Below are positions 3,425 through 39,322 of a DNA stretch of 39,499 bases, one piece after another. Made by a program: the position numbers and the translations under genes. Below the pieces are notes generated by a model that saw only the letters and a program-made list of their open reading frames with translations, did no database searches and had not been told where the DNA came from. This stretch comes from Pseudomonadota bacterium. Lineage in GTDB: Bacteria; Pseudomonadota; Gammaproteobacteria; Arenicellales; UBA868. The stretch lies in contig PBDS01000079.1 of NCBI GenBank assembly GCA_002718155.1, positions 1 to 39,499 of the forward strand. The letters run 5' to 3'. Position 1 is the first letter of the stretch. Each line of letters begins with the position of its first letter.

Positions 3425-3901
3425 TCAATGCACGAACTGCTTCGCCTGCCGGCTGATCTCCTCCCCAGTGGCATCACGTATGTCTGCTACGCGGGCCGAA
3501 AAGGTGATGTCCTGGCCCGCCAGCGGATGGTTCGCGTCGACGGTAATCTGGCCGTCATCTATGCGGGTGACGCGAAAGTGAAGCACGTCGCCTTGATCGT
3601 TTTCCGCGTCAAGTTCCGCACCAACGAAGTGCAACTCTTCAGGTGTATTATCGATCTCTTCGGTGTAGATCAGGCTGGGATCATGCTCGCCAAACGCTTG
3701 GTCAGCTGTCAGAAAAACCTCGATTCGATCACCCATGGCCAGACCCTCGAGCGCTGTTTCAACCTTGGGAAACAAAGGGCTGCTGTTGACACCGTGCACA
3801 TAGGAGATGGGTAGATCACTGTGTTCAACAATCGTGCCATTGACGTCGCGTATCGTGTAGGCGACGGAAACCAGCTTGTTGTCGGTAATCAGTGCGGGCA
3901 T
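3425..3901 (-). CDS. FKBP-type (SlyD-like) peptidyl-prolyl cis-trans isomerase
   Basis: 158 aa; VSVAYTIRDVNGTIVEHS...GLAMGDRIEVFLTADQAFGEHDPSLI...DANHPLAGQDITFSARV, SlyD/SlpA-like FKBP with IF insert. Confidence 0.9.
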   Translation of the reverse strand: MPALITDNKLVSVAYTIRDVNGTIVEHSDLPISYVHGVNSSPLFPKVETALEGLAMGDRIEVFLTADQAFGEHDPSLIYTEEIDNTPEELHFVGAELDAENDQGDVLHFRVTRIDDGQITVDANHPLAGQDITFSARVADIRDATGEEISRQAKQFVH

Positions 3902-3934
3902 TTTGGACAGCCAGCTATTGTCGGCAGAAAGACG

Positions 3935-4360
3935 TCAAGCGCGGCCTTTTCCTCGAAGTTTCTGTATGGCCCGGAGTTGGGCAGCAGCCTGAATCAGTTC
4001 CGCCTTTGCCTTGGCCAGCTCCATGTCACCCGTCCGATCAGCCAGCGCCTGCTCTGCCCGGCGCTGTGCTTCTAGCGCGGCGGCCTCGTCAAGGTCGTCG
4101 GCCCTTACCGCAGTGTCGGAAAGAACTGTTACCAGATGACCCTGAACCTCCAACAGTCCGCCGGACACGTAGAAAAACTGCTCGTCGCCTGAATCCTGCT
4201 GTACCCGGATCTCACCTGGTTTTAGCCGTGTCAGTAGTGGTGCATGCTGAGGGGCGATACCGATCTCACCCATTTCTGCCGGTGCAAAAACCATAGTCCC
4301 TTCACCGGACCACACGTCTTCCTCCGCGCTGACAATCTCGACTTTGATAGTGTTGGCCAT
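3935..4360 (-). CDS. atpC: F1Fo ATP synthase epsilon subunit
   Basis: MANTIKVEIVSAEEDVWSG...; the ORF track extends to 4426, but the internal Met at 4360 fits family N-termini and avoids overlap with atpD. Confidence 0.95.
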   Translation of the reverse strand: MANTIKVEIVSAEEDVWSGEGTMVFAPAEMGEIGIAPQHAPLLTRLKPGEIRVQQDSGDEQFFYVSGGLLEVQGHLVTVLSDTAVRADDLDEAAALEAQRRAEQALADRTGDMELAKAKAELIQAAAQLRAIQKLRGKGRA

Positions 4361-4379
4361 GTTCCGGGTCTGCCTTCGA

Positions 4380-5795
<1,416 letters not shown>

Positions 5796-35396: not shown

Positions 35397-35621
35397 TTAA
35401 TTAGACAATGAACGAAATCGAAGCCGTCGGACGGCCCAGGTCTTCGAAAGCCGGCGATAATCCTTATTTGGGAGAATTTCAGCCGTTTTTTGCGCTGCCA
35501 GATAAGCCTGATCCGCGCTCAGGCCGGCTTCTGCAAGCTGTCGCAGTAGTGCCTGAGGCTGATACTGGGCCAGGTACCCCAGCAGCCACCATGGAGGAGG
35601 AATCTTTCGTTGGGCCGGCAT
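35397..35621 (-). CDS. Small hypothetical protein
   Basis: 74 aa, MPAQRKIPPPWWLLGYLAQYQPQALLRQLAEAGLSADQAYLAAQKTAEILP...; protein-like composition, palindrome just upstream of the start. Confidence 0.45.
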   Translation of the reverse strand: MPAQRKIPPPWWLLGYLAQYQPQALLRQLAEAGLSADQAYLAAQKTAEILPNKDYRRLSKTWAVRRLRFRSLSN

Positions 35622-35870: not shown

Positions 35871-36800
35871 TTGGCTGTTAAAGAGAACCAAACGAGTTAT
35901 ATCCGGCCTATTCTGACGCAACTGGTTGTGTTGGTGCTGATCTGCCTGGGGGTAGCGTTCTGGCAGCGTGACTTTCTGGCCGAGGTTTACCTGCGTAATC
36001 AGCTGACTCAGGTGGGTTGGTTTATCAACAGCGGGATCTTCGTACTGTTTCTGGCCGGCATGGTCAAGCTGGTGCGCCTTTTCGTCAGCTATAGCCAGGA
36101 AGAACAGGCGATTAACCGGTTTCTGGCTAACCTCGATCTCGCTGTGGAACCCGAATCGGGGCTCACCGGAGAGTCGATCATTGTGCATCGGTATCGGACC
36201 CTGCGTGATCTGCACCAGCGCCGGTCCCCCATTAACCACAACGCCTTAGCGGCGACTCTTCTGGCTCACCAGTCCAGCCGCAACACCTTCCCAAAGTTCA
36301 TTCACAACATTCTCATCCTGACGGGCGTCTTCGGGACCATCGTATCGCTGGCTATTGCGCTCTTCGGGGCCTCGAACATGATTGTCACGGCATCCGAGGC
36401 CGGCAGCCTGGGTATGGTCATTCACGGCATGTCAGCGGCGCTCTCCACCACCATGACCGCTATTCTCGCGTATCTGTTTTTCGGCTATTTTTATCTTCGG
36501 CTGATGGATGTGCAGACCCACGTGATCAGCCGAGTCGAGGAGGCTACGACGACGATCCTGCTGCCGCGGTTCCAGACCCAGCCCGAGACCGTTATCGAAG
36601 ATTTCGCTGACATCATTCGGGCTGCGGCAGCGCTGGTCAAGAGACTCGACGCCTCGCAGGCACAGTATGCTGACGTGGCGGACGAACTCAAGGACCTGCT
36701 GTCGAGTTATCGCGACGAGATGCAGCGCAACAGCGCAGCGCTGGAGAAGATGATCGAGCTGCTCAGGGAAGGGTTCCGCCTCCACCAACCACCGCAATGA
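35871..36800 (+). CDS. MotA/TolQ/ExbB-like proton channel family protein (stator A)
   Basis: 309 aa, TTG start; four predicted TMs, with TM3 ILTGVFGTIVSLAIALFG and TM4 GMSAALSTTMTAILAYLFFGYF resembling MotA_ExbB; helical C-terminal tail. Confidence 0.78.
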   Translation: MAVKENQTSYIRPILTQLVVLVLICLGVAFWQRDFLAEVYLRNQLTQVGWFINSGIFVLFLAGMVKLVRLFVSYSQEEQAINRFLANLDLAVEPESGLTGESIIVHRYRTLRDLHQRRSPINHNALAATLLAHQSSRNTFPKFIHNILILTGVFGTIVSLAIALFGASNMIVTASEAGSLGMVIHGMSAALSTTMTAILAYLFFGYFYLRLMDVQTHVISRVEEATTTILLPRFQTQPETVIEDFADIIRAAAALVKRLDASQAQYADVADELKDLLSSYRDEMQRNSAALEKMIELLREGFRLHQPPQ

Positions 36801-39322
36801 TTCGTACGGAGGGATTTGTTGACCTGAGGGTCTCGCCGTCAGGGCAGATCGGCACTGACGAGGACAGTGTTTGGCCGTCTTTTACCGACATCATGATGGT
36901 CGTCGTGATGATTTTCCTGATGGCGCTGGTGGTCATTCTGATTCGCAACGTCGATCTGGTTCGTCAGTTGCGCGCGACCCTCGACTACGGTGAACAGGCG
37001 GCGACCGAGCGCACGGCACTTGCCTTGAGGGCCGCCTCGCTGGGTGATGAGCTGGCGGCCCTGCAACTTAAACTGGGTGCGACCTCGGCCAGGAAGGAAC
37101 AGGCAGAGGCGACGTCGGCACAGCGGCAGAAGCAGATAAGCCAACTGCTCGGTGACGTTGCAGCCCTGGAACAGGTGCGCGACGACCTGGTTGGTGAGCG
37201 GGACAAGCTGACACTGCAACGCGATAACCTCGAGGGCGATCTGCTCTCCCTGGAGCAGAAACACTTGTCGCTGGAGGCGTTACGGTTGGAACTTGAAACT
37301 GAAGTGGTAGCATTGAGCGGCGATCGAACAGCCCTTCAGGATGAAAAAACAGATCTGATTTCACGAAACACTGGGCTCGCCGCAGAGCGCGAACAGCTGC
37401 TTGTGGACAAAGCTGGGCTGTTGGACGTAGAGCGTACTCTGGAGGCCAGGATTGCAGGGCTCACAGATGAGATCTCCACTCTTCAGGATCGATTGTTCCA
37501 GATCGGCACTGACCGGAATCAGGTCCGTAAGGTTGCGGCCGAGAGAAAGTCACGTATCGAGGCTCTTTCACGGGACATCGCTTCGCTGGAACAGATCCGT
37601 GACGATCTCCAGGGCGACAAGCGTAAGCTGACCACATTGGGTGATGACCTTACCGGAAAGCTCCAGTCGCTCGATGACAAACACAACGCCCTGATCGCAC
37701 TGCACCTTGATCTTGAAAACCAGTTGGACGGGTTGCTTGGCGATCGCAAGCAACTGGCTTTGGACAAGGCGCAGCTGCTTCAAACCAAGGCAGCGCTTGA
37801 GAAAAAGATCACGACTCTGGATGATCAGCTCGCAGAGCTCACGAGTGATAAGAGCGCGTTACAGCAGGAAAAACAATCACTGCTAACGCAAACCGCCACA
37901 CTCACGGAAGACAAGCTCGCACTGGTGGGTCAGCTTGCTGAGTTGACAGCGCTGAAGGTGCTGCTGGAGCAGAACTTGGGACAGATCACTTCAGAGCGCG
38001 ACGGGCTGGTCTCGGAAAAACAGGCACTGGTCCAGGACAAGCTTGCCCTGGCATCGCAGCACACAGCACTGTCAAAAGAAAAGCGATCGCTGGTTCAGCA
38101 ACTGGCGGAAGTGGTGACTCTAAGAAAAGCGCTTCAAACGCAGTACGAAGCGCTTGCCGCCGACAAGACGACACTGGAACAGGAAAAAGCGGTACTCGCG
38201 GAGGCAAGTGCCGGACAAGCCCGTCGGCTGGTGGATCTTCAAAAGGTTCGTGAGCAACTCGAGGGACAGATCAAAAGTCTGACCAGCGCCCTCTCCGCGC
38301 TGCAAAAAGACAAGAGCGGGCTCGGCGAGCGCAACACAGCGTTGCGCACAGAACTGGCCACACTAGGGACGCTTAAAAGCGCGCTTGAGCGCGAGTATGA
38401 TCGGCTACAGAGTGAGCATCAGGACGCGGCCGCAAAGATCACAACGCTTGCGGCCGGGCGCAGTGATCTGCAGATCGAGATCGTCAAGCTGAGAAACGAG
38501 ATCCAGTCACTGCGTGAGGCCTATGCTGCGCTGACCGAGAATGCGGCGCAGAGCCAAGCCGATAAAACCACGCTCGAAGAAGACACGCTGGACCTTTCCA
38601 GGCGCTTGAACGTGGCCGAGCAGCTCAAACGTGAACTGCGGTTCAAACTGACGCTGGCCACCGACAAGAATGAGGATCTGGCTCGCAAACGTGATGAGTT
38701 GTTCCAGAAGAACTCGACCTTGGGCCTGCAGGTAGAGCAACTGGCCAGACTGCGTGACGATCTGGCAACCGAAAGAAAGCAGCTGATGGCGTCAAGAGCC
38801 GATCTTAAACAGGATGTCTCACGTCTTTCTGAAGAAAAAGCCTCACTTGCCGGTGAGCTCAAACAGACCGATGAGCAGTACAGGCTGACCAAGGAAGAGA
38901 TCGAATATTTGCGTGCCGAGCACGCCGACGAGGTAGCTGAATTCAAGCAAGAACGCGAACTTCTGAAAGAGGAACTCGAGGCCCTTGAGATCCTGAAGGT
39001 GCGTTATACAGAGCTTGAAAGCGATTACAATCGGTTAGTCAGACCTGCCCGCAGCAAGGTAGGCCGACATGTGGTGCGGATTCTTTTCTCGAAGGACGAT
39101 AGCGGATACCGCTACTCGCTAAAAGAGCCGCATGAGGCTCATCATATAGAAGTGGGCCTGTCTGAGTTGCACGAGCGGTTGAAAGCGCTCAAGCAGAAGT
39201 ATGGTAGCAAGCTCTACACAGCTGTTTGGTTTCCAGACGGGGCCAACCTGTCTCAGGATGAGGCATGGTCGTTTCAAACCAGTATTAACAGCAAATACGA
39301 CTACTACTACAGTAAGAATTAA
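36797..39322 (+). CDS. MotB-like single-TM protein with very long coiled coil and unassigned C-terminal domain (stator B)
   Basis: 841 aa; VWPSFTDIMMVVVMIFLMALVVILI (Asp31 at the start of the TM, as in MotB), about 690-aa heptad-rich region, C-terminal KVGRHVVRILFSKDDSGYRYSL...YDYYYSKN; ATGA overlap with the preceding gene. Confidence 0.8.
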   Translation: MIRTEGFVDLRVSPSGQIGTDEDSVWPSFTDIMMVVVMIFLMALVVILIRNVDLVRQLRATLDYGEQAATERTALALRAASLGDELAALQLKLGATSARKEQAEATSAQRQKQISQLLGDVAALEQVRDDLVGERDKLTLQRDNLEGDLLSLEQKHLSLEALRLELETEVVALSGDRTALQDEKTDLISRNTGLAAEREQLLVDKAGLLDVERTLEARIAGLTDEISTLQDRLFQIGTDRNQVRKVAAERKSRIEALSRDIASLEQIRDDLQGDKRKLTTLGDDLTGKLQSLDDKHNALIALHLDLENQLDGLLGDRKQLALDKAQLLQTKAALEKKITTLDDQLAELTSDKSALQQEKQSLLTQTATLTEDKLALVGQLAELTALKVLLEQNLGQITSERDGLVSEKQALVQDKLALASQHTALSKEKRSLVQQLAEVVTLRKALQTQYEALAADKTTLEQEKAVLAEASAGQARRLVDLQKVREQLEGQIKSLTSALSALQKDKSGLGERNTALRTELATLGTLKSALEREYDRLQSEHQDAAAKITTLAAGRSDLQIEIVKLRNEIQSLREAYAALTENAAQSQADKTTLEEDTLDLSRRLNVAEQLKRELRFKLTLATDKNEDLARKRDELFQKNSTLGLQVEQLARLRDDLATERKQLMASRADLKQDVSRLSEEKASLAGELKQTDEQYRLTKEEIEYLRAEHADEVAEFKQERELLKEELEALEILKVRYTELESDYNRLVRPARSKVGRHVVRILFSKDDSGYRYSLKEPHEAHHIEVGLSELHERLKALKQKYGSKLYTAVWFPDGANLSQDEAWSFQTSINSKYDYYYSKN
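36887..36889 (+). other. Codon for Asp31, candidate ion-carrying residue in the TM of stator B
   Basis: Position within SFTDIMM aligns by eye with the MotB Asp in YADFMTA. Confidence 0.5.

Follow-up and report, generated by a model that had tools for sequence, protein, structure and literature searches.

For ion-driven motors of the 5:2 type other than the flagellar stator, it is still debated whether the B subunit rotates or is held still. In TolR and ExbD, the stretch between the transmembrane (TM) helix and the C-terminal domain (CTD) is disordered and about 20 residues long (PMC12905483), so that their action needs no stiff coupling, and GldM provides the precedent of an 18 nm shaft (PMC9389320). 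Here we analyze two adjacent genes, A and B, carried by a 39,499-nucleotide stretch of DNA (the window; contig PBDS01000079.1 of assembly GCA_002718155.1) from a gammaproteobacterium of the order Arenicellales, lineage UBA868, which a first-pass annotation, made from the letters alone, had proposed as an undescribed stator-like system. The reading that we favor, with reasonable though not strong confidence, is that the pair forms an ion-driven 5:2 motor whose periplasmic coiled-coil shaft is rigid and phase-locked.

The sequence bears out the gene boundaries first proposed, with a TTG start for A, an ATG start for B and an ATGA overlap of the A stop and the B start at 36797-36800. The description of A as a four-TM protein like MotA, TolQ and ExbB also stands: its match to PF01618 (MotA_ExbB) is weak, E=1.7e-4 and one bit under the curated cut-off, and reaches 24.4 bits, above the cut-off, in the genome-wide search. 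The AlphaFold2 model, built from 38 A sequences (pLDDT 83), features four long hydrophobic helices of membrane length, followed by a 65-residue C-terminal helix; compared with the PDB by Foldseek, it matches ExbB, TolQ, ZorA, MotA and PomA at a probability of about 1.0, and the leading matches, save one chemoreceptor, are A subunits of 5:2 motors. Searching the PDB by sequence, using A profiles as well as profiles of the B CTD, returned coiled-coil or chance matches only. By its modeled fold, A is a divergent subunit of the MotA/TolQ/ExbB type, and the threonines of its fourth TM helix are presumed to be pore residues, by comparison with TolQ and ExbB (PMC12905483).

B features, as had been noticed, a single TM helix with an Asp at the position expected from MotB. 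This residue, Asp31, lies within the N-terminal motif WPSFTDIMMVVVMIFL and is present in every one of the 94 homologues whose N terminus could be read, and a profile alignment of the B and TolR TM helices pairs Asp with Asp (P=0.0027). A and B thus very probably constitute a motor of the 5:2 type. Beyond the membrane helix, the likeness to MotB did not survive closer inspection. The Pfam scan of B returned coiled-coil models only, with no match to an OmpA-like peptidoglycan-binding domain, to TolR/ExbD (PF02472) or to a von Willebrand A (vWA) domain. The CTD model (AlphaFold2, 41 CTD sequences, pLDDT 88) has a TolR-like strands-helix-strand-helix topology. A resemblance to TolR/ExbD had been expected ahead of the Foldseek search, in which E. 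coli TolR (5by4) was found with probability 0.91, TM-score 0.55 both ways and E-value 0.16. Since no other of the 50 PDB matches listed exceeded a probability of 0.6, B appears TolR-like, not OmpA- or MotB-like, and we consider it probable that the protein ends in a TolR-like domain; the claim concerns the modeled fold, and membership of the TolR/ExbD family is not claimed.

What sets B apart is the region in between. The first-pass annotation had rightly noticed that the 841-residue B is mostly coiled coil and carries the long tail of the pair, and had missed its main property, a length locked to the heptad. The shaft of the window contains no proline, and only one is found across 95 family sequences; its heptad period is sharp at 3.50, with a power of 12.9, where shuffled sequences reached 1.96 at most. 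Core position d is Leu at 80%, and position a is occupied for the most part by Lys, Arg, Leu or Ile, as is common in parallel two-stranded coiled coils. Across the family the shaft ranges from 123 to 960 residues, up to about eightfold: the commonest ones, of 148-197 residues, would measure 22-29 nm if straight, about the depth of the periplasm, and those of the lineage in which the pair lies between mnmE and mnmG, to which the window belongs, 70-140 nm. Neither tandem nor direct DNA repeats were found in B, which rules out a recent simple repeat expansion as the origin of the long shaft.

Despite this range, length does not vary freely. Taken modulo 7, the distance from the Asp to the conserved PAR at the start of the CTD is 5 in 41 of the 57 representatives; with each length counted once, this holds for 20 of the 35 distinct lengths (P about 3e-8, corrected for seven classes); moduli 3-6, 8, 9, 11 and 13, tested on the same distances, gave no effect. 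The remaining classes observed are 2, 6 and 3, matching the outcome of one, two and three 11-residue stutters, and classes 0, 1 and 4 never occur. Along the tree of A there are about 49 changes of shaft length and just 7 of register class, against a mean of 36 and a minimum of 26 in 1000 random relabellings. Sister pairs differing in length do so by exact multiples of 7 (7 to 294 residues) in 11 cases out of 12, the twelfth differing by 18, that is 7 + 11. We know of no other heptad-locked linker of such length.

Because the coil remains in heptad register with both the Asp and the folded domain that flank it, we interpret it as a rigid shaft carrying twist or orientation. The family has altered the length of the shaft dozens of times and kept the coupling stiff and in register, which is most simply explained if B passes orientation or twist along its length, as proposed for GldM (PMC9389320). 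In the proposed mechanism, five A subunits would surround a dimer of B TM helices, and the flow of ions, probably protons, past Asp31 would turn one part against the other. Right above the membrane, the two B chains would form one continuous parallel two-stranded coiled coil, terminating in a dimeric TolR-like domain in the periplasm, and this rigid shaft, which in principle most resembles that of GldM, would link motor and domain by passing on twist or a fixed orientation. The system might thus serve envelope mechanics by coupling to the cell wall or the outer membrane, either of which the 22-29 nm shafts of most of the family would be long enough to reach; the longer ones of the mnmE-mnmG lineage would have to lie obliquely, run along the wall, bend or fold. 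That the shaft transmits torque or orientation, rather than being a mere spacer, seems to us somewhat short of an even bet. In its fullest form, the proposal is of a rotary motor powered by protons, with one phase-locked coiled-coil drive shaft of 20 to 140 nm as its axle, conveying torque or orientation across or along the envelope in a large unnamed gammaproteobacterial family; in this form it is tentative, and less likely than not. A shaft changed in length up to about eightfold with its register kept amounts to a natural experiment on whether B rotates.

Some observations weigh against the reading as a motor with a phase-locked shaft. Length changes in heptad steps are equally expected from selection for simple coiled-coil stability, and shafts of 70-140 nm are longer than a periplasm usually is deep, something that a drive shaft running strictly radially leaves unexplained. 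Moreover, the Foldseek E-value linking the CTD to TolR is 0.16, and hhalign found no significant sequence link between the CTD and the TolR/ExbD profiles (probability 0.2%).

The cytoplasmic side of A suggests a different division of labor. Among 104 A proteins, the distance from the fourth TM helix to the tip is 108 residues in 74, and the C-terminal helix is closed by GFRL (aa 301-304), or a close variant, in 101; the tip (36771-36782) is nearly invariant while the rest of the tail varies in sequence. Given a near-constant length and a conserved tip, GFRL is likely to touch a cytoplasmic partner or the tail itself. B could then be an adjustable anchor, its TolR-like domain gripping the cell wall and its coil acting as a passive spacer, while the A pentamer rotates and performs cytoplasmic work through the fixed-length tail and its tip, as MotA does on FliG. 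MotB and ZorB are anchored likewise (PMC12905483, PMC11890865), the wide length freedom of B suits a spacer, and the tail length and tip of A are far better conserved than the length of B. However, a passive spacer should tolerate loops, prolines and out-of-register lengths, and such changes are almost absent; the analysis, moreover, identified no cytoplasmic partner. We regard this alternative as unlikely, though far from negligible.

A second copy of the pair in the same genome, on contig C72 (locus L033), was considered as a paralogue and rejected, being a strain variant with 98.6% DNA identity over 10.4 kb and the same flanks. DNA identity with the window is 99.4% for A and about 99% for B residues 1-750, falling to 72-74% over residues 751-841, exactly the CTD; the CTD accounts for 24 silent and 29 amino-acid-changing codon differences, the remainder of B for 7 and 2. 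No such excess was found in the other close pairs compared. Two explanations may account for the divergence: the alleles were swapped at the edge of the domain, or the assembly is chimeric close to the end of the contig. Two strain variants differing sharply in the CTD alone are also what a sensing domain might produce, and the pair could be a signal transducer rather than a motor, the CTD sensing the state of the envelope and the in-register coil relaying it to A, which would gate ions or signal to a cytoplasmic partner. Heptad-locked linkers do occur over short ranges in signaling proteins, namely phytochrome diguanylate cyclases (PMC9587094), but these range over few heptads, not over 100, and the pair has no effector or regulator gene as a constant neighbor, so that we consider a pure transducer improbable.

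The coordinates of the features discussed are collected in Table 1.

Table 1. Features of the A-B locus, in window coordinates.
Feature	Position	Strand	Basis
Gene A, MotA/TolQ/ExbB/ZorA-type channel subunit, 309 aa, 4 TM helices	35871-36800	+	Pfam, AlphaFold2 model, Foldseek vs PDB
A TM3, aa 139-172, LILTGVFGTIVSL motif, near-invariant	36285-36386	+	Family alignment of A and model
A TM4, aa 177-210, GMS.ALSTT.TAI motif, near-invariant	36399-36500	+	Family alignment of A
A C-terminal helix, predicted cytoplasmic, aa 238-302, length nearly fixed	36582-36782	+	104 A proteins
Gene B, putative axle/shaft subunit, 841 aa	36797-39322	+	ORF, start overlapping A stop
B TM helix, aa 28-55 (Asp31 codon 36887-36889)	36878-36961	+	Family comparison
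B coiled-coil shaft, aa 56-749, 694 residues, single heptad register end to end	36962-39043	+	Periodicity and family comparison
B CTD, aa 750-841, conserved PAR[ST] start and YDYY end, modeled TolR-like fold	39044-39319	+	Alignment, AlphaFold2, Foldseek
mnmG (gidA) start, 12 nt after B stop, ending at contig end	39335-39499	+	Sequence

A was found in 43 of the 61 relatives searched, with B nearly always directly downstream. Scanning one genome per species yielded 349 relatives, the best 80 of which are all Gammaproteobacteria and include Sedimenticola, Candidatus Thiodiazotropha, tubeworm symbionts, Arenicellales, Acidiferrobacterales and metagenome-assembled genomes of Methylococcales. Within the class, 55 of 369 genomes matched a profile of the B CTD; across the phylum 29 of 399 did, the latter including two families outside the class, perhaps Acidithiobacillia; E-values were either below about 1e-22 or there was no match, indicating a sharply bounded family. 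The fold, the invariant Asp and a pairing conserved in dozens of genera support the view of a discrete, undescribed family, related to the flagellar and Tol-Pal ion-driven motors: in the open-licence literature searched on uncharacterized MotA/TolQ/ExbB systems, 5:2 motors and the mnmE/mnmG locus, surveys report other undescribed families, and the A-B family was not found. In a class-wide sample, 46 of the 55 genomes with the pair have SoxB, as do 110 of the 314 without it; families in which some members lack the pair still keep SoxB, so this excess probably reflects shared ancestry, and a link to sulfur oxidation was rejected.

Distances between A proteins correlate with those of MnmG (r=0.84) and MnmE (r=0.85) about as these do with each other (r=0.87), showing that the pair is vertically inherited in the lineage of the window, unlike a mobile defense island. 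This bears on the comparison with Zorya drawn at the outset, of which the shared 5:2 motor core remains: ZorA structures are among the Foldseek matches of A, and PADLOC gives weak matches of ZorB to the B N terminus (5.6e-5) and of ZorA to A (0.023). An anti-phage role, in contrast, is disfavored by the housekeeping locus, by the vertical inheritance and by the lack of partner genes and of any phage or plasmid trace. No ZorC/ZorD or ZorE-type partner, nuclease or helicase, was recognized in more than 100 neighborhoods read by gene order, PADLOC having been run on A and B only; plasmids, searched with a relative's A and the window's B, and phages, searched with the former, gave no match. B, moreover, lacks an OmpA-like domain, and the tail of A is short. 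Zorya-like defense is therefore very improbable.

A survey of gene neighborhoods, which the first pass had suggested, gave the order dnaN-dnaA-rnpA-yidD-yidC-mnmE-[A-B]-mnmG-rsmG-parA-parB in the order of the window and some other lineages. In the window itself the upstream side carries an arginase-family gene in place of mnmE, and the neighbors of the pair are this gene, an aromatic lyase, an amidohydrolase and mnmG. A position between mnmE and mnmG, upstream of parA-parB, might indicate a machine for chromosome segregation or division, and the location is tight and conserved, with mostly 9-30 nt between B and mnmG in relatives of the order. Outside the mnmE lineage, however, the pair stands alone, with no constant neighbor genes; in genomes that are well assembled or form a single contig, dnaA is 0.15-1.2 Mb away, on which ground a general association with the replication origin was rejected. 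Since mnmE and mnmG belong to a stable housekeeping block, the position of the pair says little, and a role in segregation or division seems quite improbable. Just upstream of A, on the minus strand (35397-35621), lies a small ORF (72-80 aa, PPPWWLLGYLAQYQPQ...), conserved across the family and without a Pfam match. Promoter, tRNA and Rfam scans revealed nothing of note.

As first reported, no flagellar, Tol or Ton genes are found in the parts of the window examined; no gliding or type IX secretion genes were seen at the loci, and no gene for a TolA- or TonB-like partner accompanies the pair. Elsewhere, the genome holds a complete Tol-Pal cluster (ybgC-tolQ-tolR-tolA-tolB-pal) and an exbB-exbD pair adjoining msbA/lpxK/kdsB. 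MotA_ExbB matches in the whole genome, which is 86% complete, are those of Tol-Pal, ExbBD, A and its strain-variant copy, with no others, and flagellar MotA appears to be missing from this bacterium. As both known systems are present, the A-B pair would be a third motor and not a replacement, added to the envelope of many sulfur-oxidizing and symbiotic Gammaproteobacteria. Other loci (L061, L062, L064, L235 at 3577-4903, and L236) hold a second uncharacterized MotA/ExbB-like gene with a one-TM partner of 203-222 aa, which bears a 'DIDLWVRDP' domain with no Pfam match, a third small membrane gene often coming after them. At L237 (3879-6836, minus strand), a MotA-like gene is accompanied by two adjacent one-TM coiled-coil partners, one of them matching vWA; this system is probably of the TPH-vWA kind (PMC12204202).

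Compared with the described systems, the pair resembles TolQ-TolR and ExbB-ExbD in the fold of A, in a one-TM B with a conserved Asp and probably in the CTD, whose modeled fold is closest to TolR. It differs from TolQ and ExbB by the presence of four TM helices, not three, and of the 65-residue C-terminal helix in A, and from TolR and ExbD by 123-960 residues of in-register coiled coil in place of the short disordered linker. With MotA-MotB it shares a four-TM A subunit and the TM Asp of B, but neither an OmpA-like domain nor a flagellar context was detected. ZorA-ZorB have in common with it the 5:2 motor core, weak profile matches and a cytoplasmic tail on A; in Zorya, however, the long tail is on ZorA, ZorB carries an OmpA-like domain and effectors are present, whereas here the long part is on B, which ends in a putative TolR-like domain. 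The TolQ-like transducers with a vWA domain (Williams-Jones et al. 2025, PMC12204202) are likewise a recently recognized, uncharacterized motor family with an alternative B subunit, from which B differs by having no vWA match. GldL-GldM, finally, share with the pair an inner subunit drawn out into a long shaft, which in our case would be periplasmic as well; the shaft of GldM, in type IX secretion and gliding, consists of four folded domains over 18 nm (PMC9389320), and that of B of coiled coil.
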